43,548 nt of DNA from a virus. The DNA is taken from positions 1-43,548 of IMG/VR virus record IMGVR_UViG_3300037493_002337, one strand, 5' to 3'. The position numbers and the translations under genes are program-made. The notes below the pieces were generated by a model. It had not been told where the DNA came from and did no database searches. It was given only the letters and a program-made list of their open reading frames with translations. Shown here one piece after another: positions 1 to 43,548 of the stretch (positions within the stretch are counted from its first letter, which is position 1; every line of letters starts with the position of its first letter).

Positions 1-276
1 AATGAGGGATTTCAAGGAAGTCAAGGACTAGAAGGTTCTGGGAATCAAGGATTTCAAGGGAATGCGGGGAATGAGGGGAATCAGGGATTTCAAGGAAATC
101 AAGGTCCGCAGGGTTATCAAGGAGCACAACCTTCCGGGGCATTTCTGAATGATCTTGGGAATAACAATGTCAGACAGAAGAATGATGGGACGATACAGTT
201 TTGGGATTACGGAATATCGAAGTGGAGAACACCAGTTTTGACGAGTGGCGTCCTTGGATGGGATGCGGGGGAATAG
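1..276 (+). CDS. Collagen-like tail fibre protein, C-terminal part
   Basis: The reading frame is open from the first base and stops at TAG 274-276, so this is the C-terminal 91 residues of a longer protein whose start lies outside the window. Residues 1-41 are a collagen-like G-X-Y repeat rich in Q, N and E (GFQ, GNQ, GPQ, GYQ) with one irregular step. A non-repetitive tail of about 50 residues follows and contains QFWDYGISKWRTP. Collagen-like triple helices are common in phage tail fibres and bacterial surface fibres. The fibre-like gene directly downstream supports a fibre role. The exact function cannot be told from this fragment. Confidence 0.75.
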   Translation, partial: NEGFQGSQGLEGSGNQGFQGNAGNEGNQGFQGNQGPQGYQGAQPSGAFLNDLGNNNVRQKNDGTIQFWDYGISKWRTPVLTSGVLGWDAGE

Positions 277-278
277 AT

Positions 279-4508: not shown

Positions 4509-5515
4509 TCCACCGCAAGCTGATAGCGTTTGCCTGCTCTCTGCTCTTGACCCTGTGCGGCATTGCCGTCGCGCAGCAGCAGGGGATCGGGTGGCACTTT
4601 GATATGATGAGGGGGAGTGGGAACAGAAGTGAAGCAGTTTACACCCCTCTGTGGATAACTCCTATCATGACGGGATCAAACGCTCCGTCAGGTTTGGTGA
4701 CCGCCAGCAGCTCATTTTCCGCAGCTAGGTTGCCGTGGTTCGCCATGGATGGCGACATTGGCATTGACAACGACTGCTGGACTTCTGCCGGAAGTTCGTT
4801 TCCTAATTGGCTCCAGTATCAGTCCATTAGCAGGAATGCGGCTAAACAGGTTCTATTGCTGACTCTTGCCGGGAATGCTCCTAAAGACTATGCGTTTGCA
4901 GGATCGCTTGATGGAGCGTCGTGGACAACGCTATCATCTGGGACGTGCACTGACGTCGTTACAGGAATCAAGCAAGTGTACCAGTTTACAAACAACACTG
5001 AAGCGTTTTATTACTACAGGCTTACATCTACGAACGGATACTCTTCCTATACGGCGATTGCGGAGTTTGACGTATCATCGGGAATAGATATTCCTTTGAT
5101 GACATCCGCGAGCAATCCATCTCCGTTTGTCATAACTGAATCGTCTCTAAGCTCTACCGCGTTAGCAGGATGGAAGGCATTTGACAATACTGCAAATGGA
5201 ACAACGTGGCAATCTCAAATCGGCCCAATAACGCAGCAATGGGTAAACGTAGACTTCGGATCTCCAAAAGTGGCCGATATAGTTGTAATCCGCAACACGC
5301 TGAACTTCGGATTTAATAATTTGAGTGTTAGCGGATCTTCCGACGGAACTACGTATTCGGTGCTGATGGTTACCAACGCGGCTAACACGGCAACGCCGCA
5401 GCGTTTTGCGTTGAACAATGCCAACGCATATAGGCATTACAAGGTGTCAACAACCAATGGGTATGCCACTAATGTCGTATCTGTTGCCGACATAAGGTTG
5501 CTATACGCACCATAG
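4505..5515 (+). CDS. Secreted protein with two discoidin-like domains
   Basis: This is a 336-residue protein whose ATG overlaps the previous stop (ATGA at 4505-4508), so it is probably translationally coupled to the large fibre gene. Residues 1-24 form a signal peptide (MIHRKLIAFACSLLLTLCG...AVA-Q). Two similar segments, about residues 80-180 and 215-330, have the pattern of F5/8 type C (discoidin) carbohydrate-binding domains: an N-terminal W, then W(L/V)...F or VDFG, SGSSDGT(T/S)(W/Y)..L, and a closing YRxYKVSTTNGY. In that family the loops bind sugars or lipids. A longer frame reading back to 3935 overlaps the fibre gene and lacks a signal peptide at its start, so 4505 is preferred. The likely role is glycan binding at a cell surface or on a fibre. 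Confidence 0.75.
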   Translation: MIHRKLIAFACSLLLTLCGIAVAQQQGIGWHFDMMRGSGNRSEAVYTPLWITPIMTGSNAPSGLVTASSSFSAARLPWFAMDGDIGIDNDCWTSAGSSFPNWLQYQSISRNAAKQVLLLTLAGNAPKDYAFAGSLDGASWTTLSSGTCTDVVTGIKQVYQFTNNTEAFYYYRLTSTNGYSSYTAIAEFDVSSGIDIPLMTSASNPSPFVITESSLSSTALAGWKAFDNTANGTTWQSQIGPITQQWVNVDFGSPKVADIVVIRNTLNFGFNNLSVSGSSDGTTYSVLMVTNAANTATPQRFALNNANAYRHYKVSTTNGYATNVVSVADIRLLYAP

Positions 5516-20007: not shown

Positions 20008-23000
20008 ATGGCAAAGAAAATAAAAACAGCAGCGTCTGGCGGATTGCCAAGACCAGATGTTACGGTAGGACCGGCGGACCCTGCTAGGGCTAGAATTGCC
20101 AGAAAGTCAGTTGGAGCTGGCGGATTTGGTAGCCGTAATCGTGAAGCTGGAATGTTGATTGATACATCTCAGGTTTCTGCCCCATACAGTACTGGCTATA
20201 AGTTGGAAGCATACCGGAGTTCGTATGCCTACGGTTTGAGTGATCGTACAGGCGCATATGATATCCCAACCTATTTCGTTCAGATGAATGAACAGAATGG
20301 CGGAATGCTATATTGGCCCGTCACTCTGCATGAAAAATACAGTTGGTACAGATATTGGGCACGCTGTATCTACCTGGACGACAAGCACTTAGGTAATGTG
20401 CTAATGTCTGATGGAACCGAGAGAGACATCAGAAAAATCGTAGCTGGAGACAAGGTTGTTACTGCCTTGGGAACGATTCGCCCTGTTAAGTGGACATTTG
20501 AAAGGATGTGTGAGGACGAAGCTTATAGCATAGAGGCTGTCGGATGTTCTCCAATCAAGACGACTCATCATCATCCTTTCTATATTCTGCGTCGTGAGAA
20601 GGTGTATCAGAGTTGGAAAGATGGAAGTAAGAACGGGAATCACTACCGGAAGGAAATCAAGTTTGAGCCGGAGTGGGTACATGCAGAACATTTGAAGGTT
20701 GGAGACCATATTCTTAGACCGATGAATCCCCAGCTTGGCAAGAAGAGTAGGTCTATTGGAAGTATGGCAGCCTTCCTTGGATTTTATTGTGCTGAGGGGA
20801 ATCTGTGTGATTTAGATGGTCATCATCTCATCCAGCTTACTGTGCATGACAAGGAGTTGGAATATACTCAAAATTTAATGGCTGGTGCGATAGCATCGTC
20901 TAGGAACAAGGTTCGGACATATAAGTCGGACGTAAGCGACTGTGCATGGAAGGTAAAGGGATCATCTAAAGAGGCATTCGCTCTTTGTGATGAGCATGTT
21001 GGTCGTGGATCGGCAACCAAGCGGCTGTCTCAGGAGATAATGTCACTACCTAGAGTCAATGCTCTTGAATTCTTGGGAGCATACTTCAATGGTGATGGGA
21101 GTAGGACGAATGATAAATTCTCGAATCGTGGAGAGTTGACGGCTACAACTACGTCTGCTTGTTTGGCTAGTCAGATCGAAACGCTTTGCCTGAAGCACGG
21201 AATGGTGTGTCGTAAGAGTGGTCCTTATGAGCAAATGGGCAAGGGAGATGCTCCGTTTTGGAATATGTCCATTCCAAGGAAGTATGCCAAGATATTGATT
21301 GGTTTCTCAAAATGGGTAGCTACTTCTGAGCCTAAATTTGAGACCGGTGGTGGATCGTTTATATCGAATGGTTATCTCGTGTCGAAGATTCAGTCTATCA
21401 CTCACGAGGTGACTAAGGATATGGTCTACAATATCGAGGTAGACGCAGAGGGTGATGAGAAATCATTCATTTGCAATGGTATGGTGACCCATAATACTGA
21501 TGCTTATATCGGACGGGCATTGGAGCTTCTATCGGATTTGCCGATGTCGAAGCTAACTTTGAATATGCCCAAGATGGCCGAAGACAAGAAGGAACTATCA
21601 GAGGAAATCTTGGCCTTTTTCACTTATCAGCTTGAGGTGATAAACGCCTTCGAGTTGTGCCAGAACATTCTCTGGGAAATGAACATGATCGGGAATGTTT
21701 ACATTTTCCATGAGTGGGATGACAAGAAGATGATGTGGAGTCGGGCGGTTATGCTTCCCCCAGAAGAGGTTTACGTCTTCCAGTATCCGTTCACAGAAAA
21801 TAAGCGGGTTGAGTATCGTCCTCAGAGGCTGATTTCACTTATCAAGGCACAGGGGGAAGGGGATTCGTCCAGTGGAACACCCAAGGGGGATTATGATCGT
21901 TCAGCGATGAATGAGAAGATCGTTGAAGGTGTTCCGCACGAATTGCAGGAGATGGTTCGGAAAGAGGGTTGTATTGTGATGGACACGGACCCATCGACTG
22001 GTTCATTTGTTCATCATGTAGCTCGCCGTCGTTCTCCTTACCATGATTTGGGAGCGTCGGTATTGGAAAGAGTACTTGTGCCCATGTTGCAGAAGGAGCA
22101 TTACCGGTACACCCAACTCAGTTTGGCTTCTAGGAATATGACCCCTAAGAATCTCATTACGGCTCCTGGCTTGATGCCTTCCGAGTTGGATGAATTGAGA
22201 ACACAGGTAGACTTGTCGTACATGGACCCTGAATACTCTGTTATCACCAATTACGAGGTGACCTGGCAGCAGATTGGTGTACAAGATCGAATGCTGGACT
22301 TCAGTAGGGAATATGAGCAGATTGAGAATCAAGTCTTTTCGGCTCTTGGTGTTACAAGGGAACTTTTGACTGGTGAGGGACAGTTCTCTGGTACGAAGAT
22401 CACGGTAGAGATTCTGAATACGATGTTCTTGCTGACGCGGGAGGTATTGCGAAACTACATCGAGAAGCAGCTTTTCATTCCTATCTGTGAGGCTCATGGA
22501 TGGTTTGAGGAGGACAAGAATGGGGCTAAGAAGTATTTCTACCCGCAGCTTGGTTTCAACCGGTTGACGATTCGGGATAATGCGGAAGTGTTTGATTCGT
22601 TGTTCCAGCTTTACAGCAAGGGTAGTTTGCCTGTCGAAGTCATTTACGAGTTGTTCAATCTCAATGCAGAGGAAATGCACAACAAGTTATTGGCAGGCAT
22701 GTTTACTGCGAAGGATTCGACATTCAACCGTATGACGGAAGAGGTTAATACGGAGGTTGGCAGGTCGATTGTTCAGCAAACAGATGTTGTAGAGAAGGTA
22801 TCGAAATATCTTGGACTCAAGTTCAAGGGACCGCCGGATGAGGGTGGAGGCGAGGCTGGTGGAGTTCAAGAGGGTGGCGGTGGCGATCAAGAGGGTGGCG
22901 GAGTATCTCCGCAGACTGATGATGGTACGGCCCCTGATAATGGTCAAGCGGAAGATAATCAGGAATCTGGTGGTTCTGATGTTGATCCAGATGCTGTGGC

Positions 23001-23091
23001 AAAGGAAGTTGCTGATGCGCTTCCACCTGATGCTTCTGACAAGGACATACAAGAGGCCATTGATGAGGCTGGTAAAGCACACGGAGAATAG
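20008..23091 (+). CDS. Portal protein with intein
   Basis: This is a 1027-residue precursor; removing the 377-residue intein (residues 120-496) leaves 650 residues. The extein joins WYRYWAR to TDAYIGRALELLSD, a segment that fits the portal family, and later shows RRRSPYHDLGASVLERVL, LASRNMTPKNLITAPG and GVTRELLTGEGQFSGTK, typical of portal wing, crown and clip regions. The last 130 residues are glycine/glutamate-rich and disordered. Portals form the dodecameric DNA gate of the head and dock the terminase encoded just upstream. The start is ATG 20008, three bases after the previous stop. Confidence 0.9.
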   Translation: MAKKIKTAASGGLPRPDVTVGPADPARARIARKSVGAGGFGSRNREAGMLIDTSQVSAPYSTGYKLEAYRSSYAYGLSDRTGAYDIPTYFVQMNEQNGGMLYWPVTLHEKYSWYRYWARCIYLDDKHLGNVLMSDGTERDIRKIVAGDKVVTALGTIRPVKWTFERMCEDEAYSIEAVGCSPIKTTHHHPFYILRREKVYQSWKDGSKNGNHYRKEIKFEPEWVHAEHLKVGDHILRPMNPQLGKKSRSIGSMAAFLGFYCAEGNLCDLDGHHLIQLTVHDKELEYTQNLMAGAIASSRNKVRTYKSDVSDCAWKVKGSSKEAFALCDEHVGRGSATKRLSQEIMSLPRVNALEFLGAYFNGDGSRTNDKFSNRGELTATTTSACLASQIETLCLKHGMVCRKSGPYEQMGKGDAPFWNMSIPRKYAKILIGFSKWVATSEPKFETGGGSFISNGYLVSKIQSITHEVTKDMVYNIEVDAEGDEKSFICNGMVTHNTDAYIGRALELLSDLPMSKLTLNMPKMAEDKKELSEEILAFFTYQLEVINAFELCQNILWEMNMIGNVYIFHEWDDKKMMWSRAVMLPPEEVYVFQYPFTENKRVEYRPQRLISLIKAQGEGDSSSGTPKGDYDRSAMNEKIVEGVPHELQEMVRKEGCIVMDTDPSTGSFVHHVARRRSPYHDLGASVLERVLVPMLQKEHYRYTQLSLASRNMTPKNLITAPGLMPSELDELRTQVDLSYMDPEYSVITNYEVTWQQIGVQDRMLDFSREYEQIENQVFSALGVTRELLTGEGQFSGTKITVEILNTMFLLTREVLRNYIEKQLFIPICEAHGWFEEDKNGAKKYFYPQLGFNRLTIRDNAEVFDSLFQLYSKGSLPVEVIYELFNLNAEEMHNKLLAGMFTAKDSTFNRMTEEVNTEVGRSIVQQTDVVEKVSKYLGLKFKGPPDEGGGEAGGVQEGGGGDQEGGGVSPQTDDGTAPDNGQAEDNQESGGSDVDPDAVAKEVADALPPDASDKDIQEAIDEAGKAHGE
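20365..21495 (+). mobile_element. LAGLIDADG intein in the portal gene
   Basis: The intein runs from C1 (TGT 20365) to Asn (AAT 21493-21495); the next extein residue is Thr. Block A is CIYLDDKHLGNVLMSDG; block B contains TTHHHPFY; the C-terminus is VYNIEVDAEGDEKSFI then MVTHN. Endonuclease motifs are LGFYCAEG (residue 257) and LGAYFNGDG (residue 356). It is clearly different in sequence from the other two inteins here, indicating separate acquisition. All splicing residues are present. Confidence 0.92.
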
Positions 23092-27406: not shown

Positions 27407-28492
27407 ATGAAGGTATGTAATTCGGTTGGGGTATGGTTGTTTTTGATAGGGGTAGCTTTTGGGGCCACTCCCATTCAGGACTTAAAACTGATTGATTCAG
27501 CGAATGGCAACAAGGTGGCATTCACGAATCTGGGATCGGTATCGGTTGGTTCTGGGACAACCGTGACTACGATTTCAAGCAATTTGATAACGGTCTCTGG
27601 GAACATCATGCCTGGGGCTAGTAACACCTATGACATTGGATCATCCAATGTGCCATTCCGTCATGGATACTTTGGAACGAACGCTTTGTATCTTGGACCA
27701 TACCTCATGGGTGTCAATTCAAATGGTTCATTAACATATAATGGCTATCCTTTTGTGAGTACTAGTGGTGTATCGATAGCGGCTCAGGATGGAGTAATAA
27801 CTGGCGGGCAGAATAACGTAAGACTGGGCACGAATGTAACAACCACGGGTGATGTCATTGTTGGCGGCGGTCTGAGTCAAACAGCGGAGACCATCTCATT
27901 CAGCAATACAGCTACTGACAACTTTGGATTGCAGAGTGCTGCATTCCCTGTATCAGGACAGACATTAAGTACTTGGTTGGGATTTGCCGCCCTCTACGGT
28001 TCCACCGGCTCGTATAACAACGCTATGGGATATTTAGCTGGCTACAATTCCCCCGGAAATTACAAAAGCGCAATGGGAGCTTACGCCCTTGCCTATGCCG
28101 CAGGTTCATACAACACCGCAATAGGAAGTGACGCCCTTCGCGGAGCACCCGGAAATTACAACATCGCAATGGGATATTCCGCTGGATACTTCGCAGGAGG
28201 GGAGAGCAATACGTTCTTGGGATATCAGGCAGCAATATCAGCAGGGAATATCACAAACGCCATCGTCATTGGGGCTAATTCAGTTCCGTTGGGGAATAAC
28301 TCAACGGTCATCGGAAACTTACAGACGACAAACGTCTTGATCCACGGAACTGTCAGGGCAAGCGGAGGTTTCTTAGGTTCACTAACTTTGACCAACGGCA
28401 CCACGATATCTGACGGAGTCCTGAACGGAACGAACGGTATCTACTTCACGCCAAGAGGTTCTACAACCAACTACTGGATAACATTCCCATGA
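27407..28492 (+). CDS. Secreted fibre-like protein with YadA-type beta-roll repeats
   Basis: This 361-residue protein has an AAAGGAG ribosome site. Residues 1-20 are a signal peptide (MKVCNSVGVWLFLIGVAFGA). Around residues 76-92 an NTYDIGSSNVPFRHGYFG motif occurs, a hallmark of phage tail-fibre shafts. Residues about 193-281 are a set of GSYNNAMGYLAGY, GNYKSAMGAYAL, GSYNTAIGSDAL, GNYNIAMGYSAGY units, the left-handed beta-roll of trimeric autotransporter (YadA-like) heads. It probably forms a trimeric adhesive fibre. It overlaps the next gene by four bases (ATGA). Confidence 0.8.
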   Translation: MKVCNSVGVWLFLIGVAFGATPIQDLKLIDSANGNKVAFTNLGSVSVGSGTTVTTISSNLITVSGNIMPGASNTYDIGSSNVPFRHGYFGTNALYLGPYLMGVNSNGSLTYNGYPFVSTSGVSIAAQDGVITGGQNNVRLGTNVTTTGDVIVGGGLSQTAETISFSNTATDNFGLQSAAFPVSGQTLSTWLGFAALYGSTGSYNNAMGYLAGYNSPGNYKSAMGAYALAYAAGSYNTAIGSDALRGAPGNYNIAMGYSAGYFAGGESNTFLGYQAAISAGNITNAIVIGANSVPLGNNSTVIGNLQTTNVLIHGTVRASGGFLGSLTLTNGTTISDGVLNGTNGIYFTPRGSTTNYWITFP

Positions 28493-30219
28493 ATAGAATA
28501 GTAGCAATCTTTATCGGATTATGTCTTGGAACCGCCCCGTTTGTCTCGGCAACGGACGTGCATCTGGGGTCATTGTCTAGTTTGACTTGGGGCGAACCTA
28601 TTCTTTCTGTAGTGGCTTCAGGAAACTATTACTCCACCAACTATACGGAGAACGGAACCAATTTTGCGGCAATTGTTTGGACGAATGGGACCGGGACATG
28701 CACAGTGAGTGAACCGGTGAACTGCGATTTGCTGGTGGTGGCTGGGGGAGGGGCGGGGGAGACAATGGGACCCGGTGGTGGTGGGGGTGCTGGGGAGTTG
28801 TATTACAAAACCGGAACAAGCTTTGTCGCTGGAACGTATGACGTAGTGGTTGGGAACGGTGGGCAGAATAGTAGCTTCAGTAATTTGGTATGCGCTGCCG
28901 GAGGAGCTGGAGGTAATGGAGGCGGGGGAGCGAATGGTGGATCTGGCGGGGGTGGATCGGCTGCAAGTCCTGGCGGATTAACCGTGAAGACTATTGGGTT
29001 TGGAAATGCTGGGGGTGGTGGTGGAGACGTAGCTACTGCCGGTGGCGGAGGTGGTGCTGGTGGAGTGGGAAGCACAGCAATTGATTACCGTGGTGGTGAT
29101 GGTGGGGTTGGAAGGCTTATTTCTATAGATGGATCGAATAGATGGTATGCGGCGGGAGGCGGTGGCGGTGGTGCGGGATCGGGTGGCGGTGACGGCGGGT
29201 CACCGGGAGCGGGAGCGGGTGGCGGGGATTACGGAAGGCACTACGGAACTGACGCATTACCGAATACAGGGAGCGGTGGTGGTGGTGGTACTTGGGATGC
29301 TGGTGGGCAGGGCGGCAGCGGGGTGGTGATTGTGCGGTTCCCCAGAATCGCAAACAGAACGACACTAGTTGGAATGTTTATACCCCCAGTTGATTACAGA
29401 AATGTTGTGGCGTGGGGACAGGATAGATATGGCCAGCTCAATGTACCTGCTTCTGTAACAAATGCTGTCACCATATCCAGCGGATATCAATACACTTTGG
29501 CACGTCTTACGAATGGGACAGTAGTTGCGTGGGGACTTAATAGTGATGGCCAGTGCAATATACCCGATTCAGCTACAAACGCAATTGAAGTGGCTGCTGG
29601 AGGTTACCATGCTTTGGCACGTCTCGCGAACGGTTCAGTAGTTGCGTGGGGACTTAATTTTGCCGGTCAAACCAACGTCCCTGCATCAGTGACAAACGTA
29701 ATTGCTATATCTGGTGGGGGTAGCCATTCGTTAGCTCTTCGTTCAAACGGTCGGGTTGTAGCATGGGGAGATAATGGCTACGGTCAAACCAACGTCCCTG
29801 CATCAGTTACGAATGCAATTGCTATATTTGGTGCGGGTAACCACTCGTTAGCTCTTCGTTCAAACGGTCGGGTTGTAGCATGGGGAAATAATGATTACGG
29901 TCAAACCAACGTCCCTGCATCAGTTACGAATGCAATTGCCATATGTGGTGGAGTTAGTCATTCCATGGCCCTCCGCACAAACGGCACAGTTATAGTGTGG
30001 GGGTCTAATGTTTTCGGTCAAACAAACGTCCCCGATTCAGTAACAAATGTTATCGCTATTGGGGGTAGAGCTAACCACTGTCTAGCACTTCGTGCGAACG
30101 GTTCTATCATAGCGTGGGGATATGGTGATGAAGGCCAAACCAACGTCCCTTCTTACGTCACAAATGCAACTGCCGTGGCTGGCGGACAAACATTTTCAGC
30201 GGCAATCATAAGAAGGTAG
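28489..30219 (+). CDS. Secreted glycine-rich and RCC1-repeat protein
   Basis: This 576-residue protein starts in an ATGA overlap. Signal peptide: MNRIVAIFIGLCLGTAPFVSA. Residues about 80-285 are a glycine-rich domain ending GGSGVVIVRFP, seen in adhesins that may fold as polyglycine-II bundles. Residues about 304-570 are six or seven 39-residue RCC1-type repeats (VVAWG..GYGQTNVPASVTN, then HSLALRSNG), predicted to form a beta-propeller. This combination suggests a secreted or fibre-borne binding protein. The same RCC1 style is frequent in Verrucomicrobiota-type genomes. The neighbouring YadA-like gene is probably its partner. Confidence 0.82.
   Translation: MNRIVAIFIGLCLGTAPFVSATDVHLGSLSSLTWGEPILSVVASGNYYSTNYTENGTNFAAIVWTNGTGTCTVSEPVNCDLLVVAGGGAGETMGPGGGGGAGELYYKTGTSFVAGTYDVVVGNGGQNSSFSNLVCAAGGAGGNGGGGANGGSGGGGSAASPGGLTVKTIGFGNAGGGGGDVATAGGGGGAGGVGSTAIDYRGGDGGVGRLISIDGSNRWYAAGGGGGGAGSGGGDGGSPGAGAGGGDYGRHYGTDALPNTGSGGGGGTWDAGGQGGSGVVIVRFPRIANRTTLVGMFIPPVDYRNVVAWGQDRYGQLNVPASVTNAVTISSGYQYTLARLTNGTVVAWGLNSDGQCNIPDSATNAIEVAAGGYHALARLANGSVVAWGLNFAGQTNVPASVTNVIAISGGGSHSLALRSNGRVVAWGDNGYGQTNVPASVTNAIAIFGAGNHSLALRSNGRVVAWGNNDYGQTNVPASVTNAIAICGGVSHSMALRTNGTVIVWGSNVFGQTNVPDSVTNVIAIGGRANHCLALRANGSIIAWGYGDEGQTNVPSYVTNATAVAGGQTFSAAIIRR
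29665..30015 (+). repeat. Tandem 117-bp RCC1-type DNA repeats
   Basis: GGTCAAACCAACGTCCCTGC recurs at 29665, 29782 and 29899, giving a 117-bp (39-residue) period. The second and third units are nearly identical at DNA level while outer units have diverged, which points to recent local amplification. Confidence 0.85.
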
Positions 30220-32162: not shown

Positions 32163-32182
32163 TGTGATTTTTTCTTTATATT
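32163..32182 (+). promoter_or_regulatory. Phage promoter-like motif, site 4 (TGTGAT-N8-TATATT)
   Basis: TGTGAT (32163-32168) and TATATT (32177-32182) flank TTTTTCTT. This site differs from the one at 40212-40234 at a single base over 23. The ATG of the ferritin-domain gene is 24 bases after the TATATT box, with GGAGG in between. Confidence 0.7.
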
Positions 32183-32206
32183 CTGAACACAAGTGGAGGA
32201 CTGGAT

Positions 32207-34144
32207 ATGATAACACGTAGAGGTAGCCTGTTGAATGGCACAATTTCAGGGGATGCAATCCTGATGTATAAGCCAGGGGATGTTGTGAAGCCGGTCACGG
32301 TTATGGACCAGTTCTTTACCGGCGTTGTTCGTGCTGTTGACACAAAGACTAACAAGATCACTGTTGCTTGGGGTGGCGGACCAGAGAGTCAACACGACTC
32401 AGATGAGATTATGCCCATGCCTTTCTTCGGACCATCACATAAAGACGGCAAGATAGCCTCTCGTCGCATGCGGTCAAATATGAATGACCTCCTTGTAGAT
32501 ATCCCCGAAATTGACGAGGAGACCCAACAGAATCCGCCAGAATCTATTGAACAGACGGACTTTATAGCAGATGACATGGAAGCATTACTCAATCGTCAGG
32601 TTGGTAGTGAGTTCTATTCGGCGTACCTGTACTACATGATTGCGGCAGTATTCCAGAGTAAGGGATTGGTTGGATTCCAGAACTGGATGGAGAAGCAGGG
32701 CGATGGCGAGATTGGTCATGCCATGAAGGTGTATAACTACCTAGTTGATACGGGTTCGGCTCTTGAACTTCCAGCAGTGCCAAGTCCTAAAATTGATCCG
32801 GCGATGGAAGTTGTCGAGATCACTCGTGCTATTCTTGACCATGAGATGCGGGTTACGGAAGATTGGAAGAGGATTGGGCAGCTTTCTAAGCAACAGGATA
32901 ATCCGGCAACATGCAAACTCGTTCAGGAATTCATGGTTGAACAGGTCGAGGAAGAGGATTCGGCGTTGACTCTTCACCAGAAGGTCCAATTGGCGGATAC
33001 CGGCAGTGGTATCTTATTGATTGACAATGACTTGAGGGATCGTGGACCGATTAGTGCATCTGAGAAGATCGCCGACACTCATAAGCAGATTCAAATGAGG
33101 GTCCATCCAGCCAGATCTTGTAGTCCACACGATATTCTGGTTGTATCTGAGGGATTGCAATGTGGCAATTGTGGGGCCATATCAGAAGATCATGGTAAGA
33201 ATTGGGAAGCATCTCCTGGCCGCTGGGCATCTGAGAAGACGGCAACGAATCCTTCGATGGAGCAGTTTTGTGGGGAGCCGGATACGCATGGGCTGGATGT
33301 TCCGGTATCTGGTGGCACATCTGTGATGAAGGACTTGGCGTATCATCTGCATGATGAAGCCAATGAGTTTGCTGATGTTGATCCTAGGTTTGCAGGGATT
33401 AAGGCTGGATTGAAGGCGATGGCAAGGGAAGTGAATGCTTCCAGTTCTTTCGATATCAATCAGTTCCTGAAGATGGCAACTTCCGGGGATGAGCCCTCAG
33501 CACAGAGAACTATCTGGGAAGAAACTGCGAAAAAATCTTCAGTTTTGGCAACACGGAAGGCATCTGACGGTCTCCGTTCTCGTAGAGCGATGTACTGGTG
33601 TGCTCCTGATAGGACATTTCGTTTGACGAAACAGGAACAGGATCAGGGTATATGCACCTGCCCCAAATGTCGGATTGAGATGAATAAGGAGAGATTCACT
33701 AGGTCAGACAAGCTTCTGAGTTGTCCGGAGTGTGGATTCAAGGTTCCTACAAGTAAGGCGGTCACAAAGGTCGAGGTAAAGGTTCCAGCAGGGGTTGAGG
33801 TGGATGTGACCACACAGAACGATGGAGAGGAAGTTCAGGGAGAGGTGATTATGGCAACAACAATGCGTCGTGGTCGTTTTGCATATGCTGATCCTGCCAA
33901 TTTGGTAGACTTGCCAAGAATGACATTGGACCAGATTTCATCGATAGTCTATCGGGACTGGAAGAATGTCAACTATGCCGCCAAACCGTATCTGGAAGCT
34001 ATGTCCACACTGAGGAATGTAAGTGATATGTACATGGCGGATACTGGAACATCAATCGTGGCATATTTCCTGTCGAATGCTACATCATGGCGTGGAGATG
34101 TTGCGAAGGCAGTAAAGAAGGAATTGCAAAGGAGAATTAGATAA
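32207..34144 (+). CDS. Virion-like protein with an embedded ferritin domain
   Basis: This 645-residue protein has four visible parts. Residues 20-70 are an SH3/KOW-like barrel (YKPGDVVKPV, FFTGVVRAVDT, EIMP). Residues about 125-265 are a bacterial ferritin domain: E135 (SEFYSAYLYY), E168 and H171 (GEIGH), E213 (HEMRVT), E245, Q246, E248 and E249 (VEQVEEED). Spacings (33, 3, 45, 33) agree with E. coli FtnA ferroxidase residues E17, E50, H53, E94 and Q127. Residues about 300-330 and 465-515 hold CxxC zinc-ribbon elements. The end is helical. Ferritin oxidises and stores iron; here it could load iron or protect DNA in the virion. Confidence 0.85.
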   Translation: MITRRGSLLNGTISGDAILMYKPGDVVKPVTVMDQFFTGVVRAVDTKTNKITVAWGGGPESQHDSDEIMPMPFFGPSHKDGKIASRRMRSNMNDLLVDIPEIDEETQQNPPESIEQTDFIADDMEALLNRQVGSEFYSAYLYYMIAAVFQSKGLVGFQNWMEKQGDGEIGHAMKVYNYLVDTGSALELPAVPSPKIDPAMEVVEITRAILDHEMRVTEDWKRIGQLSKQQDNPATCKLVQEFMVEQVEEEDSALTLHQKVQLADTGSGILLIDNDLRDRGPISASEKIADTHKQIQMRVHPARSCSPHDILVVSEGLQCGNCGAISEDHGKNWEASPGRWASEKTATNPSMEQFCGEPDTHGLDVPVSGGTSVMKDLAYHLHDEANEFADVDPRFAGIKAGLKAMAREVNASSSFDINQFLKMATSGDEPSAQRTIWEETAKKSSVLATRKASDGLRSRRAMYWCAPDRTFRLTKQEQDQGICTCPKCRIEMNKERFTRSDKLLSCPECGFKVPTSKAVTKVEVKVPAGVEVDVTTQNDGEEVQGEVIMATTMRRGRFAYADPANLVDLPRMTLDQISSIVYRDWKNVNYAAKPYLEAMSTLRNVSDMYMADTGTSIVAYFLSNATSWRGDVAKAVKKELQRRIR

Positions 34145-35480: not shown

Positions 35481-35801
35481 ATGAGTGAACAACGTATTGC
35501 TGAACGAGTGGCACGAGTATTCATTGCTGGTGAGGACTGGGTTATTACGGACGACATCAAGAAACTCATTCCGCAGGTCATTCGAGAGATTGGCAGGCGT
35601 GGTGGGCATGCTTCACTGTCTGGTATGAAGATCAAGGTCTCGAAGTTTGTTCTGGACCACTTCATTCTGTTCCGTTGGATATCGAGCTTTATGAGGGGGA
35701 TTACGAACCTGGCAAAGTGTTGGTATGGGCTAATTTTGGTCCAGCTAGACATCCAGTTCCGGTACAGGATCGGCAGCCATTCGATGCGAAGGCGATTGTG
35801 A
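35481..35801 (+). pseudogene. Frameshifted N-terminal gene segment
   Basis: ATG 35481 lies behind AAGGA. Residues 1-62 look natural (RIAERVARVFIAGEDWVITD, DIKKLIPQVIREIGRRGGHA). From about base 35660 the frame gives a basic, improbable tail (YRIGSHSMRRRL). The -1 frame instead continues with PLDIELYEGDYEPGKVLVWA and then RQPFDAKAIVSAIADALISL, which is clearly protein-like. A single missing base near 35650-35675 would explain this; no slippery heptamer for programmed frameshifting was found. Without the shift the protein would run on into the MORN protein frame, since no stop separates them. Confidence 0.55.
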
Positions 35802-35875
35802 GTGCGATTGCGGATGCATTAATATCATTGGTGAATTACCGTGAAGTAGAGTCTATGGATAAAGGAGTAAATGCG

Positions 35876-37588
35876 ATGGATAACAGGAAGATAGCGAGTC
35901 GGCTATTGTTTATGGCGAAGGAAGTTTTGGGCATGGACTTCCCTACTCAAAAGGCTTTGGATAAGTATTTGAAAGATCATCCATATGAACACAAGAGTGA
36001 TCATAGGGTAAATAGAAGTGTTTCTTGGGAAATTGAAGATCATGGGAGAGGAAAATCATGGAAAGAAGAAAGGGATTTGGAGTGTGAAGATTGTGGCGGT
36101 AAGGGTTGGCTTTGGGAAGATGGCATAAGGGAAAGATGTGATTCGTGTAGGGGAACTGGCAATAAATCGAGAATAGCAAGTGCGTTAGTAAAGATTGCCA
36201 AGGAGTTGATGGGTATGGACTTTCCTACTCAGGATGCTATGGATAAGTATATGAAGGATCATCCAGATGCGAATCGGTCCAATCATAAGGTTGTGAAGAC
36301 ACCTGAAAAGAAGGAGCCTGCGAAGAAAGAGTCTCCGAAGAAGGAGTCAGAAAAGAAGGATGTTTCTAAAAAGATTCCTAACGACATGATGAATCATAGT
36401 GTTTTCGGATTTCACGAAATGGCCAATCTGCAATCTCTTAGGCATGTGGAAGATTTTGGTGAAACGATGGAAAAGGCGGGGATTGGTGGTAAAGCTAAAG
36501 AGTTGTATGATGAATTGTTGAAACATACAGAGAAAGCTACTGAGATTCAAGAAGACATAGATCATTCCAAATCTGACGACGAAGAGGAAACAAAGAAACT
36601 GGTGAAACGGCAAAAGGAACCTTTGGAGAACATGTTAAAGGCAAAGAAAGACTTGAAAAAGTATTTGGTGGATACCTATTTTTCAGGAAACAAACCGGCA
36701 ATTTCTATCAAAGACGGCAATGGGAAAATGAAATGGAGTTTAGGTGAATTGAGGTCTGATGAAGGCGTCTATAGCGGCGAAATCAAAGACGAAAAACCAA
36801 ATGGGAAAGGATCGTGGGTAAAGCATGATGGTAGCAATTACAAGGGCAATTGGAAGGATGGCAAACTAGAAGGAAAAGCAACAATAGAATATCCTGATAA
36901 TAAAAAAGTCGATGGAGAATTTAAGGATGGAAAACTTCACGGAAAGGGAAAAATAAGCTGGGGAATTGGTTTTGAAGACATGGATGGAAAACAGAAGGCT
37001 CGGGCGAATCTTGATGGGATTGAAGTAGATGGCAATTGGGAAGACGGAAAGATGCACGGGATAGTTGTTAGGAAGTTTCACGATGGAAGGTTGTTCGGAG
37101 TTAAAGGCCCTGTCACTATCCAAGAGAAATGGGAGCATGGTGAGAAAAAAGATAGTAGTTTTGTTAAAGAAGAAAAAGATGGGAAGATAGCTTCGAGATT
37201 GTTGTTTATGGCGAAGGAAGTTTTGGGTATGGACTTCCCGACACAGGACGCTATGGATAAGTACATGAAAGATCATCCAGACGCAGATAGGTCTAACCAT
37301 AAGGTTGTGAAAGACCCGAAGGATGAGACATCGGATGAGGTTGAAGAGAGACTGAAGAAGAAAATGGGTCCTTCATATAAGACACAAGAGCAGCGGCTAG
37401 AAGATGCGAAGCCTAAGCATGGTCCTGCCCAATCTCCTTCGGATGATATGGAAAATCATCCGTACAATCAGATGCGTAAGCGTCAGAACGAGAAGGCGAT
37501 GAAGGAGATCGGGGAGCATTACAAGAAAGACCCGAAGGATTTGACAGTTGATGAGATAGTGCAGTTCAATCAACGTGGCAGGAAGTAG
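35876..37588 (+). CDS. Modular protein with MORN repeats and DnaJ-like zinc finger
   Basis: The protein has 570 residues from ATG 35876, chosen because AGGAG lies eight bases upstream; the frame itself is open upstream to about 35570. Three copies of a module (RIA..L..(M/I)AKE(V/L)(L/M)GMDFPTQ, then AMDKYMKDHPDA.RSNHKVV) occur at residues about 3-45, 99-141 and 434-480. Between copies 1 and 2 is a DnaJ-like zinc finger (C70-x2-C73-G-G-K-G and C88-x2-C91-R-G-T-G). Residues about 298-412 are MORN repeats (YKGNWKDGKLEGKATIEY, GEFKDGKLHGKGKISW). MORN repeats bind lipids or proteins. It could be a head-packaged scaffold-like protein. Confidence 0.82.
   Translation: MDNRKIASRLLFMAKEVLGMDFPTQKALDKYLKDHPYEHKSDHRVNRSVSWEIEDHGRGKSWKEERDLECEDCGGKGWLWEDGIRERCDSCRGTGNKSRIASALVKIAKELMGMDFPTQDAMDKYMKDHPDANRSNHKVVKTPEKKEPAKKESPKKESEKKDVSKKIPNDMMNHSVFGFHEMANLQSLRHVEDFGETMEKAGIGGKAKELYDELLKHTEKATEIQEDIDHSKSDDEEETKKLVKRQKEPLENMLKAKKDLKKYLVDTYFSGNKPAISIKDGNGKMKWSLGELRSDEGVYSGEIKDEKPNGKGSWVKHDGSNYKGNWKDGKLEGKATIEYPDNKKVDGEFKDGKLHGKGKISWGIGFEDMDGKQKARANLDGIEVDGNWEDGKMHGIVVRKFHDGRLFGVKGPVTIQEKWEHGEKKDSSFVKEEKDGKIASRLLFMAKEVLGMDFPTQDAMDKYMKDHPDADRSNHKVVKDPKDETSDEVEERLKKKMGPSYKTQEQRLEDAKPKHGPAQSPSDDMENHPYNQMRKRQNEKAMKEIGEHYKKDPKDLTVDEIVQFNQRGRK
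35882..37311 (+). repeat. Three dispersed 120-130 bp module repeats in the MORN gene
   Basis: Copies lie at about 35882-36010, 36167-36300 and 37178-37311. Copies 1 and 3 share almost the same bases over the MAKEVLGMDFPTQ part; copies 2 and 3 are alike in the KYMKDHPDA part. The pattern fits intragenic duplication with later mixing. The interval given is the span of all three copies. Confidence 0.75.
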
Positions 37589-37608: not shown

Positions 37609-39867
37609 ATGAACAGACGATGTGTAGGAGATAGTTGTTTGGCGGCAGCGGGAGCACGATCAGTGTCTCTCGATATGCCAATCGCTACTGTTCTGATGAA
37701 CCCTCGACAGGAATGGAGTCGTCTGGCCAGCGGGTGCGGCAGGATGCGTGTCGCCAGAAACATGGAAGTAGACTGGAAGAAGTTCACACTGGATAGGTAT
37801 CTGTTTACTCATGTTACCATCGTTGCCTCCGTTGCCACAGAAGATAATGGCTATCTCATCAAGCCAGCTTGCAATGACTTGGTGAACAACAACGGCAATG
37901 CTTGGACGAATGAAGTGTTGCTGGCGACGTTCCGGACCTTCGTGGGTGGAGAGAACTACCTAGAACACTGTTTCATTTCTGGGACTAGAGTGTTAATGGC
38001 AGACGGCACATACAAGGAGATTCAGGATATTCTGCCGGGCGAAATGGTCATCAATCGGTTGGGAAACCCAAGTAGGGTAAAGAATCTCCAGAAGCGGAAG
38101 TCAGACTCTTTAGTCAAAGTGTCGTCAACGGACATTTTATGCCGAGATATGTTCGTTACTGGGAATCATCCGTTCTGGGCATTTCACGCTCGGGAGACCT
38201 GCCCCAAGACGGGAAGACCGAATTCTTTCAACAAGGATAATGATTTTTGGCACTTGGATACCTGGACTGGTTTCTCGGTTGGAGTCCACAGAAGGAAGGG
38301 AGAATTATACGATTGCGGGATTACTCCTCAATGGACGAAAGCGGAAGACCTGAATCCAAATCGTGACTTCCTTTCTCATCCCGTTTCCGACAGGGTTGTG
38401 GAGAATGCAGAGATCAATGAGAATCGGGCAGAGTTGATTGGATGGTTTCTAGCAGAAGGCAGTTATGCTCATACGAATGCGTTCAGCGATGAAGATTCTG
38501 GAGCCATCTTCAATCTCGGCAATGACGAGTGGGATATTGCCGAAAGGATCAAGAGTCTGCTGATTGTGGAGTTTGGAGATTCACTCAGGAAGGATTGTGA
38601 GCCTCGTATTCGGGAATCTGAAAGTGGCTCACTGACTGTCGGATTGAGCAACAAGACTGTTGCCGAGTTTTTCTTCAAGTGGTGCGGCAAGTATGCTTGG
38701 GCGAAGAAGTTGAATGCTGATGCGATGTGGCTCCCCAAGAAGTTGCAGGCATTGATGCTGAAGCACTGTCTGAATGGTGACGGCACAGGAGAGACGGAGT
38801 CGAAAGGTTACTCTATCGAACTAAAGTCGAAGGCTTTGGTTCAACAACTTCTATTCATCTCTTGGCGTCTTGGTCTGTGTCCTACATATCGGGAAACGGG
38901 CGTGCTTCCAAGATATACGGATGTCGAAGTTGTGGACGGCTATGATGTGTTTTCCGATCCGCTGACTGGCAAGAAGTCTCGTCCGGGTTACGGCTTGTGG
39001 TTCCATGTTGGAGACTCGAAGGCACTGAATGATTCTCTCGGTATTGAGGATGTCAGGATCGCAAGTAGGGCTTCAAAGTCGAAGACGCATATTTTCTCTG
39101 ATGGATGCGGCAAGTGGCTGCTGTCGAAGATGGATGCCGCCGAGAAGGTGGGTGTCGGAGCGGATGTTTTCAACCTCGAAGTGGAAGACGACAATTCTTA
39201 TATTGCCGAGGGAGTTGTTGTTCACAACTGCCAGGTGCCTGAGTTGTCCAAGGGTAAGATTCTTGATGCCGTTCTGAGGCCGTTGACTTACAGGGACAAA
39301 GAGGGTCGGACGGCAGATATTTTCTATACCGACATCCTTGTAGCCACAGATAGGAAACATGATCGTTTGGTGAAGAAGATCGCTTCTGGTGAACTAGTCA
39401 CTATGTCGATGGGTTGCCTCGCGGATTGGGTGACGTGTTCCCGTTGCGGCAAGGTGCTTGGCGACAATATGCCTAATTGTCGTCACCTTGACCATGAGTT
39501 GCTAGCTAAGTTCAAGGACAAGCAGGGTGTTGAACGTATTGTAGCTGAACTTTGTGGTAGAACGGTTGTTGGCAAGGATGGTAAGAGGGAGGGTGATTCC
39601 AAGAGTGTTCGGTTTATTGAGGCATCATGGGTTGAGAAACCGGCGTTTTGTGGGGCGGTATTGAATCACTATATAAGTGATCTTCCAAAGTCTGCCTATA
39701 GCATTTTGGAATTTCCGACTGACAGGCTTCAATTGGCTGTGGAAGACATTTTCAAATTGCGAGTTGCGGACAAGAATGGCATGATGGTGTTACGAGTTGC
39801 TCAGGCGGAGATAGCTCGTCGGATGCGTGAAGACCGGTTGTGGAAGATTTCAGGTAGACTTGTATAA
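37609..39867 (+). CDS. Prohead protease-like protein with intein
   Basis: This is a 752-residue precursor; removal of a 420-residue intein (121-540) leaves 332 residues. The extein reads FVGGENYLEH joined to CQVPELSKGKILDAVLRP, later LVTMSMGCLADWVTCSRCGK. This matches a phage head-maturation protease family in which the His of LEH (H120) and the Ser of SMGC (S600 of precursor, 180 after splicing) are likely catalytic. A four-Cys/His cluster (CSRCGK, NCRHLDH) follows. Prohead proteases cut core and capsid proteins during head maturation; core-like genes follow directly. The start at 37609 has AGGGGA upstream. Confidence 0.8.
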   Translation: MNRRCVGDSCLAAAGARSVSLDMPIATVLMNPRQEWSRLASGCGRMRVARNMEVDWKKFTLDRYLFTHVTIVASVATEDNGYLIKPACNDLVNNNGNAWTNEVLLATFRTFVGGENYLEHCFISGTRVLMADGTYKEIQDILPGEMVINRLGNPSRVKNLQKRKSDSLVKVSSTDILCRDMFVTGNHPFWAFHARETCPKTGRPNSFNKDNDFWHLDTWTGFSVGVHRRKGELYDCGITPQWTKAEDLNPNRDFLSHPVSDRVVENAEINENRAELIGWFLAEGSYAHTNAFSDEDSGAIFNLGNDEWDIAERIKSLLIVEFGDSLRKDCEPRIRESESGSLTVGLSNKTVAEFFFKWCGKYAWAKKLNADAMWLPKKLQALMLKHCLNGDGTGETESKGYSIELKSKALVQQLLFISWRLGLCPTYRETGVLPRYTDVEVVDGYDVFSDPLTGKKSRPGYGLWFHVGDSKALNDSLGIEDVRIASRASKSKTHIFSDGCGKWLLSKMDAAEKVGVGADVFNLEVEDDNSYIAEGVVVHNCQVPELSKGKILDAVLRPLTYRDKEGRTADIFYTDILVATDRKHDRLVKKIASGELVTMSMGCLADWVTCSRCGKVLGDNMPNCRHLDHELLAKFKDKQGVERIVAELCGRTVVGKDGKREGDSKSVRFIEASWVEKPAFCGAVLNHYISDLPKSAYSILEFPTDRLQLAVEDIFKLRVADKNGMMVLRVAQAEIARRMREDRLWKISGRLV
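37969..39228 (+). mobile_element. LAGLIDADG intein next to the protease catalytic His
   Basis: The intein runs from C1 (TGT 37969) to Asn (AAC 39226-39228); the next extein residue is Cys. Block A is CFISGTRVLMADGTYKEIQD; block B contains VTGNHPFWAF; the C-terminal blocks read VFNLEVEDDNSYIAEG and VVVHN. Endonuclease motifs are LIGWFLAEG (residue 276) and LKHCLNGDG (residue 384). All splicing residues are intact. It is the longest of the three inteins in the window. Confidence 0.92.
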
Positions 39868-39905: not shown

Positions 39906-40205
39906 ATGAGCAGGAGCAGGATAACGAGCAGGGAAGCGGAAGCATCGGAAATTCTCAGGGCTGTTGAAAGTCTGGAGAGGTTCTCGGCTGTCGTGGATGA
40001 TTCTGGATTGGCAAGTGAGGCTAATTCGGCAGCCAAGGAAGACATGAAGACGGTCAATGAGAGTCGTCCGGCAGGTGCTGCTGATCTTAAGGATCAGGGT
40101 GACCAGAACGCCAAGGCGAACAAGAATTGGCCGGTGTCGGAAGCTGACAAGGTTAAGGTTGCGAGGAAGCTCGTAACGCTTGCAAAAGAACTTCTACAAG
40201 ACTAA
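39906..40205 (+). CDS. Putative prohead core/scaffold peptide
   Basis: This 99-residue protein has an AAGGAG ribosome site. It is polar and helical, with an acidic N-terminal helix (EAEASEILRAVESLERFSAV) and a C-terminal amphipathic helix (KVKVARKLVTLAKELLQD) of the same A-K-E type as the MORN modules. It stands between the protease and the acidic core proteins, a position typical of scaffold or core proteins. No family is recognised. Confidence 0.6.
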   Translation: MSRSRITSREAEASEILRAVESLERFSAVVDDSGLASEANSAAKEDMKTVNESRPAGAADLKDQGDQNAKANKNWPVSEADKVKVARKLVTLAKELLQD

Positions 40206-40212
40206 CAGTTAG

Positions 40213-40232
40213 TGTAATTTTTTCTTTATATT
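40213..40232 (+). promoter_or_regulatory. Phage promoter-like motif, site 5 (TGTAAT-N8-TATATT)
   Basis: TGTAAT (40213-40218) and TATATT (40227-40232) flank TTTTTCTT, as at 32163. A palindrome ACTAAC-A-GTTAGT (40201-40213) lies just upstream. The leader to ATG 40300 is about 60 bases and can form GGTGT/ACACC pairing before GGAGG. It precedes the core, decoration and capsid genes. Confidence 0.7.
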
Positions 40233-40299: not shown

Positions 40300-40815
40300 A
40301 TGAGTGTGGACATTGAGAAGATGGCAAGTCGTTTGGCTGCTTTGGAGGCGAGATTCGCCGCTGAAGAGTCGAAGGATGATAAGAAGGATGACGCAGACAA
40401 GAAGGAAGCTAGTGAGCGTATGGCGATAGCTTCTGAAATCGCGGCTCTTGAGCGCAGACTTGCTGCGGAAGAAGATGAGAATGAGTTTGAGGACAAGAAG
40501 GCATCCGACGAAAAGGATGAGAAGGTCGACGAGAAGAAGGCTTCTTTGGTTGACCCTAATGGGGTTGAGGAACAGATCACCCAGAAGCGGTTTACGGAAG
40601 TTGAGGACCTCGAACACGGTACGGAACTCACGACCGATGATACAACGTTGGATGCGGCTCCTACGGAGTACGTGGCACGGATGAAGAATGCGTCGTCCCG
40701 GTTGGATGCTGTGGCGACATATTTGGAAAAAACTGGCCGGACGGCTATGGCTCTGCGTCTTGATAAGATTGCAGATTCTATTGACGCTCGTGTTGCCAAA
40801 ATTACAAGGGCGTAA
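40300..40815 (+). CDS. Putative prohead core/scaffolding protein
   Basis: This 171-residue, highly charged, helical protein has a CGGAGGA ribosome site. Two similar segments, MASRLAALEARFAAEES and IASEIAALERRLAAEED, are followed by K/D/E-rich stretches, a central neutral part, and a C-terminal helix (GRTAMALRLDKIADSI). High charge, coiled-coil makeup and place before the capsid gene fit a scaffold or core protein that is cut and lost at maturation. Confidence 0.68.
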   Translation: MSVDIEKMASRLAALEARFAAEESKDDKKDDADKKEASERMAIASEIAALERRLAAEEDENEFEDKKASDEKDEKVDEKKASLVDPNGVEEQITQKRFTEVEDLEHGTELTTDDTTLDAAPTEYVARMKNASSRLDAVATYLEKTGRTAMALRLDKIADSIDARVAKITRA

Positions 40816-40847: not shown

Positions 40848-42056
40848 ATGAGCAGAGTTAGACTTACATCTCGCGACCGGTCTTCGGCGGATCAAACCCC
40901 GTATCCCGGCAATGTCAATCAACCAGATCGCAATGATCCTAAGTGGGAGCAGTACCACACGTTCGAGCAACGTGTGAATCATGAGCTTCCTGATATGCGT
41001 CATGATTGGCAGAACGATAGTCGTGATGACATCGGTTTTGGCGTTCCTGAGACATGGGGCAAGTCTCCTACAGTGGCATCGGCTCGTGCTGCTGCAACAA
41101 GAGCAGTTCGTGTTGCCATGCTGTTGCTGGGTGATAAGGTCTCCGATGAGGTGATCGAGAAGCAAGCGCAGGACCTTCTGGCAATGGGACAGGTGGCCAT
41201 GGATCGTACCCTTCAGCGTTTCGCCGATACGCAGAAACTCTATGCTGACGAAGCAGAGGACAAGGATGAAGAGTGCGTGGCCAAGAAGTCAGCAGACGAG
41301 AAGTCTGAAAAGGTCGAGGACGAGAAGAAGGCCGCTACTGGCGAAGCCAAATTCACGCCCAAGATTGAGACTCCTGGTGCGGAAGTAAAGGCTGCGGACG
41401 AGAAGAAGGACGAGAAGGACGAAGACAAGAAGTCCTGTGCGGCAGCCGATGCGAAGGAAGAAGACAAGAAGGAAGAAGACAAGAAGGAAGATGCTAAGGA
41501 TATGAAGGCGATGATCGTCGCCGCTGTAGCCGAAGCAATGAAGGCAGCTCTCCCTGATTTCATCCAGAAGAAGGTGGATGAGAAGAAGGAAGACAAGAAG
41601 GACGAGAAGAAGGACGACAAGAAGGCAGCCGACGAGAAGTCCGAGAAGGTTGAAGAGAAGAAGGACGACAAGAAGGCCGCTGACGAGAAGTCTGAGAAGG
41701 TTGAAGAGAAGGTTGAAGAGAAGAAAGCCGCAGTCGAGTCCGATAAGGACGAGAAGGCGGAAGAGAAGAAGGCTTCCGTAACGAAGAAGGGGATGAACGA
41801 GTTTGACATTGAGCTTACAAGCGCAATGGACGACGAGATCGAACCGGATGCGGATGCGGATGAACGGTTGGCTTCTGCATTGTTCTCTGATGATCAGGGA
41901 GCAGGGAACTCGGATGGTAAGTCTGAGTCGTCCCAGAAGAAGGCCGGTATATCGAAACTCGGCGGGCAGCCGAGAGTCGCCTCCGTTGGTGCGGCAGGCG
42001 TAGACATCAGTTCCATCTGGCAGTCGGCTCCAGATGTGAGCGAAGCGTTCAGATAA
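40848..42056 (+). CDS. Lysine/glutamate-rich prohead core protein
   Basis: This 402-residue protein has an AGGAGG ribosome site. Residues 1-130 form a folded part with VASARAAATRAVRVAMLLLG and VIEKQAQDLLAMGQVAMD. Residues 130-320 are almost entirely K, E, D and A, with two near-identical 17-residue units, and one helix in the middle (MIVAAVAEAMKAALPDFI). The last 80 residues are acidic and then polar, ending DISSIWQSAPDVSEAF. Strongly charged coil proteins before capsid genes act as prohead cores (as in T4 gp22). The many acidic sites could be cut by the upstream protease. Confidence 0.75.
   Translation: MSRVRLTSRDRSSADQTPYPGNVNQPDRNDPKWEQYHTFEQRVNHELPDMRHDWQNDSRDDIGFGVPETWGKSPTVASARAAATRAVRVAMLLLGDKVSDEVIEKQAQDLLAMGQVAMDRTLQRFADTQKLYADEAEDKDEECVAKKSADEKSEKVEDEKKAATGEAKFTPKIETPGAEVKAADEKKDEKDEDKKSCAAADAKEEDKKEEDKKEDAKDMKAMIVAAVAEAMKAALPDFIQKKVDEKKEDKKDEKKDDKKAADEKSEKVEEKKDDKKAADEKSEKVEEKVEEKKAAVESDKDEKAEEKKASVTKKGMNEFDIELTSAMDDEIEPDADADERLASALFSDDQGAGNSDGKSESSQKKAGISKLGGQPRVASVGAAGVDISSIWQSAPDVSEAFR
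41610..41711 (+). repeat. Two tandem 51-bp units in the core gene
   Basis: Units at 41610-41660 and 41661-41711 encode the 17-residue repeat (KD)DKKAADEKSEKVEEK. They differ at only a few third positions, which suggests a recent slip or unequal exchange. Copy number may vary between related phages. Confidence 0.8.
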
Positions 42057-42587: not shown

Positions 42588-42624
42588 TCCGTCTAACGGA
42601 TAATGCACTTAGGAGGATATGACA

Positions 42625-43485
42625 ATGGCTGTTGATAACCAAACCAAGCAAGACATCATCTCGCAGTATATTCGCACCGCCGCAGGGCGTCAGCGTTTGG
42701 CAGCGAGCATGATCCAGCCCCTTCGTCGCCGGAGGGACTATATGTCCGTGGGTCGTAAGGCGTTCTTCGTGGAAGCTCTCCCCGATGGCGCATTGCCGAT
42801 CTACGACAAGGACCCCAACATCACCGCATACGTGGTTGGTGAAGAGGGTGAGAATATCGTGGCCGTAGCGAAACCGAAGCGGGTACTTTTCCCGTTGTTC
42901 GAGATCGCATCGAACCCCGAGATTCAGTTGACAGAAATCAAGCAGCGTCGGTTCGATTTGATCGAGCGTTCGGTTGATTTGGGTAAGTCTGAGATTCAGG
43001 CTGAGGAAGATCGCAAGGTCTTCGCGGTCATGGATGCTCTGTCTGCTGACCCAACCAACCCGAATCCTTTCATCCCGGTGACTGGCAACCTGACCGCAAA
43101 CGCATTGGCTGACGCCTTCGCGAACGTGGAGCGCACCGACATTCGTGTCGCGACTGTGTTCCTGAACGCCAAGGACTACGCCGACCTGCGTAAGTGGGAT
43201 CGGGACACGCTGGACATCGAGACTCAGGCGATCCTGTTGAAGACAGGTCTGATGGCTACGCTCTGGGGAGCCAAGCTCATCGTTTCGCGTATCGTGCCGG
43301 AAGGCGTCGTGTACGTGTGCGGCGAGGCTGAGTTCTTCGGTCGTATCCCGGTTCGTACGGAGTTGACGGTTCTGTCCGCCGACGATCCTAAGAACCGCTT
43401 GATCGGATTCTCGATCTTTGAGCAAATTGGCATCGGGGCGTATAACCCCTTCGCCTTGCAGGTGCTCCAGATCACCCGCGTGTAA
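42625..43485 (+). CDS. Major capsid protein (HK97 fold)
   Basis: The protein has 286 residues from ATG 42625. Two ATGs lie behind AGGAGG (42611-42616): 42619 is only two bases away, 42625 is eight, so the second is preferred. It contains RRRRDYMSVGRKAFFVEALP, FELIASNP-like FEIASNPEIQLTEIKQRRF, a helix DRKVFAVMDALSAD, the domain-like ATVFLNAKDYADLRKWD, WGAKLIVSRIVPEGVVYVCG and FEQIGIGAYNPFALQVL. The last parts are typical of the P and A domains of HK97-fold capsids. It builds the head around the core proteins encoded just upstream. The codons are more GC-rich than in most of the window, as is usual for high expression. Confidence 0.9.
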   Translation: MAVDNQTKQDIISQYIRTAAGRQRLAASMIQPLRRRRDYMSVGRKAFFVEALPDGALPIYDKDPNITAYVVGEEGENIVAVAKPKRVLFPLFEIASNPEIQLTEIKQRRFDLIERSVDLGKSEIQAEEDRKVFAVMDALSADPTNPNPFIPVTGNLTANALADAFANVERTDIRVATVFLNAKDYADLRKWDRDTLDIETQAILLKTGLMATLWGAKLIVSRIVPEGVVYVCGEAEFFGRIPVRTELTVLSADDPKNRLIGFSIFEQIGIGAYNPFALQVLQITRV

Positions 43486-43509: not shown

Positions 43510-43548
43510 AAGACCTCGGAGGGGTAACTCTCCGGGGTCTTCTTTTTT
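43510..43548 (+). terminator. Strong intrinsic terminator after the capsid gene
   Basis: AAGACCTCGGAG (43510-43521) pairs with CTCCGGGGTCTT (43530-43541) in a 12-bp stem with one G-U pair and an eight-base loop. It is followed by a C and at least six T (43543-43548, cut by the window edge). It lies 25 bases after the capsid stop and would end the capsid transcript. Confidence 0.92.

Follow-up and report, generated by a model that had tools for sequence, protein, structure and literature searches.

A classical ferritin domain inserted into a head-cluster protein of a phage G-like jumbo phage

Proteins of the ferritin superfamily are already known from phages, where ferritins and Dps are usually read as helpers acting in the infected cell; both Dps and catalases have been described from gut phages (PMC8008677). 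A phage ferritin is also represented by gp217 of Vi01-like phages (Sajous1), which a virion study identified by mass spectrometry but which is free-standing and shares its operon with a tail gene (PMC10892097), whereas the ferritin described here is fused and lies in the head cluster. The Dps-like proteins of phages (phage G gp346, LP65 orf120 and those of Gratiaviridae) likewise belong to the superfamily, one of them coming from a related jumbo phage; gp346 of phage G, however, is of the Dps type and is encoded far from the head genes (at 255 kb vs. 23 kb for the major capsid protein, MCP).

The HK97-fold shell genes of encapsulins are accompanied by a ferritin-like protein. Encapsulin cargo belongs to another subfamily and bears a short loading peptide, whereas here a DNA-packaging phage encodes a full ferritin within a multidomain protein. 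The inner-body proteins of phiKZ and the internal head proteins of T4 are packaged and cut by a head protease, two properties that we infer for the protein described here; to our knowledge, none of them carries a ferritin. Classical prokaryotic ferritins (Pyrococcus, Archaeoglobus, Thermotoga; PF00210) share with the present domain the fold, helix E and the ferroxidase residues at about 34% identity, but the cellular relatives found are stand-alone, whereas here the ferritin is an insert within phage proteins of 420-933 aa. This fusion into a head-cluster protein is the new part, as no such case was found in the literature searched, with subscription journals mostly outside its scope. A Foldseek search against viral models returned chiefly viral ferritins and Dps that are separate proteins, along with the protein's C-terminal domain in Gordonia phages; a few low-ranking models of uncultured-phage 'prohead proteases' may contain Dps-like parts.

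All predicted genes of the window (the whole 43,548-nucleotide stretch analyzed) lie on the + strand. They follow the order large terminase, portal (with an intein), an 836-aa protein, one homing-endonuclease gene and moron-like genes, the ferritin-bearing gene, a protein with the repeat tag, head maturation protease (with an intein), scaffold-like proteins, a small protein and the MCP. The main features of the cluster around the ferritin-bearing gene are:

20008-23091, + strand: portal protein, probably intein-bearing, in the upstream part of the cluster (phrog_16240; the insert is missing from the portal of L074)
37609-39867, + strand: head maturation protease, interrupted by an intein (phrog_18299; Hint match just under Pfam's cut-off)
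40300-40815 and 40848-42056, + strand: two acidic scaffold-like proteins (composition and place before the MCP; conserved in relatives)
42619-43485, + strand: major capsid protein (phrog_2522; tblastn)

Both ends of the split protease match the intein-free protease of Tunturi_5, a jumbo phage with a 309-kb genome whose host is an acidobacterium (PMC11924767). By tblastn, the MCP was 69% identical to that of LR745208, an uncultured huge phage of 485 kb, 48% to that of Tunturi_5 and 36% to gp27 of Bacillus phage G, and from these relatives the window is taken as a fragment of a phage G-like jumbo phage. A GTDB scan with the whole 645-aa ferritin-bearing protein returned no relative and, therefore, neither a host nor a prophage was assigned.

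Intein-like inserts were observed in three genes of the window (9005-11371, 20008-23091 and 37609-39867), the portal and head protease genes among them, and the protease of one relative (L071:10331-13645) appears to carry two. A strong terminator-like hairpin of 14 pairs (43510-43541) directly follows the MCP gene. Further, possible host-surface or virion decoration proteins are encoded at 28489-30219, 201-4508 and 3935-5515; their features are RCC1 repeats, in a protein that also has a glycine-rich domain, as well as BspA leucine-rich repeats and F5/8C domains.

An earlier note on this DNA had described a complete ferritin domain encoded in the structural region; its gene indeed sits in the head-assembly cluster, in the same position as in its relatives. 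Its parts are as follows:

32168-32206, + strand: promoter-like TTTTTTCTTTATATT and a good ribosome-binding site, GTGGAGG, preceding the 645-aa gene (sequence)
32207-34144, + strand: head-cluster protein with ferritin cassette, 645 aa, ATG start (same-place homologues in seven other related contigs)
32207-32425, + strand: N-terminal domain, residues 1-73, possibly KOW/SH3-like (kept in eight phages)
32450-32461, + strand: KIAS, candidate site for the head protease, ahead of the ferritin (motif at residues 78-83 in five ferritin-bearing homologues)
32570-33043, + strand: ferritin domain, residues 122-279, helices A-E (Pfam, PDB, AlphaFold, Foldseek and residue conservation)
33065-33076, + strand: KIAD, candidate site 8 residues past the ferritin (KTAS, KTAS, KVAS and KASS there in the other four copies)
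33092-33196, + strand: possibly a small zinc ribbon, with CxxC at 318-321 (sequence motif; this copy only)
33257-33316, + strand: conserved segment with GEPDTHGLDVPVSGG (common to L001, L027, L074 and L005)
33569-33766, + strand: zinc-ribbon core MYWCAPDR..CPKC..CPECGFKVPTSK, residues 455-520 (in eight relatives, with or without ferritin)
33920-34141, + strand: C-terminal domain phrog_13953, widespread in phages (in L228 fused to a head maturation protease)

The Pfam Ferritin family (PF00210) spans residues 126-261 of the protein (E=1.5e-25, 90 bits vs. a cut-off of 24.5). The top PDB sequence matches were the archaeal ferritins 3kx9, 7ohf and 2jd6 (E ~1e-25 to 1e-26), which cover residues 120-281 and thus include helix E. 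AlphaFold predicted helices at residues 122-151, 155-181, 202-229, 233-262 and 266-278, with block pLDDT values of about 80-94, and a Foldseek search retrieved archaeal and Thermotoga ferritins (TM 0.90-0.93, 1.1-2.3 Å). The four-helix bundle by which the ferritin assignment was to be judged was hence recovered, with helix E in addition.

When aligned with Pyrococcus ferritin, residues E135, E168, H171, E213, Q246 and E249 fell on E17, E50, H53, E94, Q127 and E130, in agreement with the previous mapping of the first five onto FtnA-type positions. All six were invariant in the five phage copies, so the metal residues are retained in relatives, and the same was true of Y142, E245, E248 and E250; the E49 position was variable (G167 in the window copy, D in the other four). 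The other phage ferritin domains were 46-76% identical to that of the window. Since synonymous sites were near saturation, a dN/dS ratio was not computable and pN (0.15-0.18) was compared with pS (about 0.75) instead; the low pN at near-saturated pS indicates strong purifying selection. Residues 122-279 constitute a complete classical ferritin with an intact set of ferroxidase residues, apparently active. Two neighbouring classes were rejected: bacterioferritin (Bfr), where the position of the heme-ligating M52 is occupied by I169 (E168-I-G-H171), and Dps, which was ruled out by helix E and the intrasubunit ferroxidase residues.

The layout previously proposed for the protein, an SH3-like barrel followed by the ferritin and zinc ribbons, held only in part. 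A zinc ribbon does lie behind the ferritin, but the barrel is weakly supported, the N-terminal region being modelled with low confidence (pLDDT about 40); its best case is a weak KOW-type profile match (L24/NusG; E 0.03-0.1), which makes an SH3-like nature plausible. As to the ribbons, the second (residues ~462-517) stood, being conserved in eight relatives and giving a weak PDB match (E=8e-4) together with weak profile matches to TFS4, RPA12 and L37Ae, while the first (CxxC 318-321) did not align in relatives. The C-terminal phrog_13953 domain is present in most homologues of the 645-aa protein; in many phages it constitutes a separate protein of ~75 aa, located near the genome end in Gordonia and Mycobacterium phages, and in others it is fused, as in L228, where the partner is the head maturation protease. 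No solved relative of this domain was found, a single match at E=3.4 being discarded as chance.

Scans of viral contigs yielded seven further distinct homologues (L001, L002 = L004, L003, L005, L027, L071 and L074). As far as each contig reaches, the neighbourhood (genes 30280 and 30566, the core gene, 35149, the protease, the scaffold-like genes and the MCP) is kept in the eight contigs. Common to the homologues is a core made up of the ~73-aa N-terminal domain and the zinc ribbon MYWCAPDR..CPxC..CPxCGFKVPTSK, and LR745208 encodes a 131-aa zinc-ribbon homologue in the matching place. The ferritin was found in five of the eight homologues (window included) and was missing from L071, L074 and L005; it is an optional cassette, apparently inserted once between the parts of the core. 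In the ferritin tree, the five inserts formed a single clade (99/97) on a long stem, separate from cellular ferritins, of which the 80 nearest were all stand-alone proteins. With this long stem and weak deep branches, the tree identified no cellular donor.

The neighbour-gene tree placed the phage of L071 within the group of the window, L001 and L003 (100/100), the node joining it to the window and L001 being supported at 84/89. Given this position inside the ferritin-bearing clade, the phage of L071 most likely lost the cassette. It encodes, however, a separate 212-aa ferritin/rubrerythrin-like protein of another subfamily (L071:14134-14772; Pfam E=1e-19), located one gene past the head protease, at a distance of about 6 kb to the core gene, which is the sole PF00210 match in the 151.8-kb contig. 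For this second ferritin, a 47% partial match was found in one phage record, and the viral contigs held no relative besides L071's own. A replacement located in the head cluster argues for a head-related function, although a single case is no proof. The cassette is nevertheless dispensable, as three relatives do without the insert and a PF00210 search of LR745208 and Tunturi_5 gave no match; among the phages without the insert, a known substitute ferritin was present only in that of L071.

The promoter-like site reported upstream of the gene found some support. Exact copies of the 13-mer TTTTCTTTATATT were confined to two sites, one at 32170 ahead of the ferritin-bearing gene, the other at 40220 ahead of the scaffold-like genes; allowing up to 2 mismatches, 5 matches were counted vs. 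1.15 expected. T-rich/TATATT tracts were also present upstream of the homologous gene in several relatives. Co-expression of the ferritin-bearing gene with the scaffold genes is plausible. Scanning this region for sigma-70 promoters returned no more matches than shuffled sequence.

The linkers of the core proteins are rich in the motif [KR]xA[ST], which was picked by eye before counting. It was found 19 times in 1794 linker residues and not once in 2406 domain residues (Fisher p=9e-8); matches lying wholly within linkers numbered 18 vs. 2.8 in shuffled linkers, and 4 for the reversed motif. Within the window, 24 matches fell in head-cluster genes, where 6.9 were expected, and 6 in other genes, where the expectation was 7.1. 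Pooling seven related contigs gave 72 matches in head genes (31 expected) and 151 in the others (120 expected), with no head-gene enrichment of the reversed motif; the contrast between head and other genes was weak in short contigs, among which G008 showed none. A looser form, [KR]x[AS][STD], flanks the ferritin on both sides in all five copies, upstream at residues 78-83 (KTSS in one copy) and downstream within about 8 residues of the ferritin end, and cuts at these motifs would release ferritin fragments of 178-234 aa. According to a reference cited within PMC13282480, a morphogenetic protease processes proteins of the phiKZ head and inner body. The K-x-A-S/T linkers are candidate sites for the head protease, to be taken as a lead rather than a demonstration.

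Two peptide tags were also observed. A dispersed helical peptide resembling IASRLLFMAKEVLG, sometimes followed by MDFPTQDAMDKYMKDHPDADRSNHKVV, occurs in many proteins, mostly directly behind the initial Met or C-terminally, in the window (35675-37588 and 39906-40205) and in contigs L001, L002, L003, L005, L027 and L074, with 33 regex matches in the seven contigs (window included) vs. about 0.25 in shuffled ORFs. It is possibly a packaging or targeting tag, by analogy with the capsid-targeting sequence of T4; as the ferritin protein itself lacks it, it was not taken as evidence for packaging of that protein. In LR745208, two head-cluster proteins (L084:13167-13745 and L084:15204-15869) share the N-terminal tag TAxLDNxAxLFQxxHxSLGIxxKVAMDFAxRCDLLSD.

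The explanation that we favour is that a classical ferritin, inserted between the N-terminal domain and the zinc ribbon, has been kept as a working ferroxidase in a protein of the prohead or inner head. The 645-aa protein would enter the prohead together with the scaffold, and the head maturation protease would cut the K-x-A-S/T linkers, leaving a ferritin fragment in or on the head. There, it would oxidize and store Fe(II) and thereby spare the packaged DNA from Fenton damage. Read from sequence and gene setting, this explanation as a whole has, in our view, about an even chance of being right. Of the functions suggested in the earlier note, protection of packaged DNA fits the gene setting better than carriage of iron into the host.

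The main rival holds that the late protein stays in the infected cell, where its core would bind RNA polymerase or ribosomes and its ferritin would lower free iron in the cytoplasm. The weak matches to the NusG/L24 KOW domain and to the zinc ribbons of TFS4, RPA12 and L37Ae would suit such a role, free-standing ferritins and Dps are common in phages, and the Dps-like proteins of gut phages have been read as helpers against oxidative stress (PMC8008677). However, the place in the head cluster is fixed in all relatives, the replacement ferritin of L071 is also encoded in that cluster, and the linkers carry the motif of head genes. We regard this rival as rather improbable, albeit worth serious consideration.

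Ferritin geometry bears on whether the protein would have to be cut. A ferritin cage consists of 24 subunits around a cavity about 8 nm wide. The 366-residue C-terminal part, multiplied by 24, amounts to about 1 MDa by calculation, which exceeds this cavity. A cage is therefore unlikely to close unless the protein is cleaved or helix E is flipped, and excision at the linkers would solve the steric problem. The same bulk of tails would also suit an uncleaved, full-length head component, in which the ferritin would act as a dimer or in an open assembly, or chiefly be a structural oligomerization module, and the heads of jumbo phages hold many unique proteins (PMC13282480). A purely structural role, however, would not demand invariant ferroxidase residues, and candidate cleavage motifs flank the ferritin; we consider this alternative distinctly unlikely. 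That the virion displays ferric iron to exploit host iron-uptake receptors, a Ferrojan horse discussed on account of the MS-detected, tail-operon gp217 and echoed in the earlier suggestion of an iron-bearing ligand, is very improbable here, as the gene belongs to the head and not the tail cluster and the Vi01 work saw no pathway dependence in the tested host (PMC10892097).

Returning to a protease-released ferritin handling iron near the packaged DNA, a more far-reaching, joint reading is that of an encapsulin-like head, in which the excised ferritins would form iron-storing cages by the DNA and the replacement in L071 would mean that a function in the head is selected. As a combination we hold it doubtful; if true, the cages would shield the DNA from Fenton chemistry or bring iron to the next host. 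The selection acting on the cassette and its apparent replacement point to an iron or oxidative chemistry of the capsid, a role not described in the literature searched, and suggest that iron is handled by some giant phages within their own heads or close to them.
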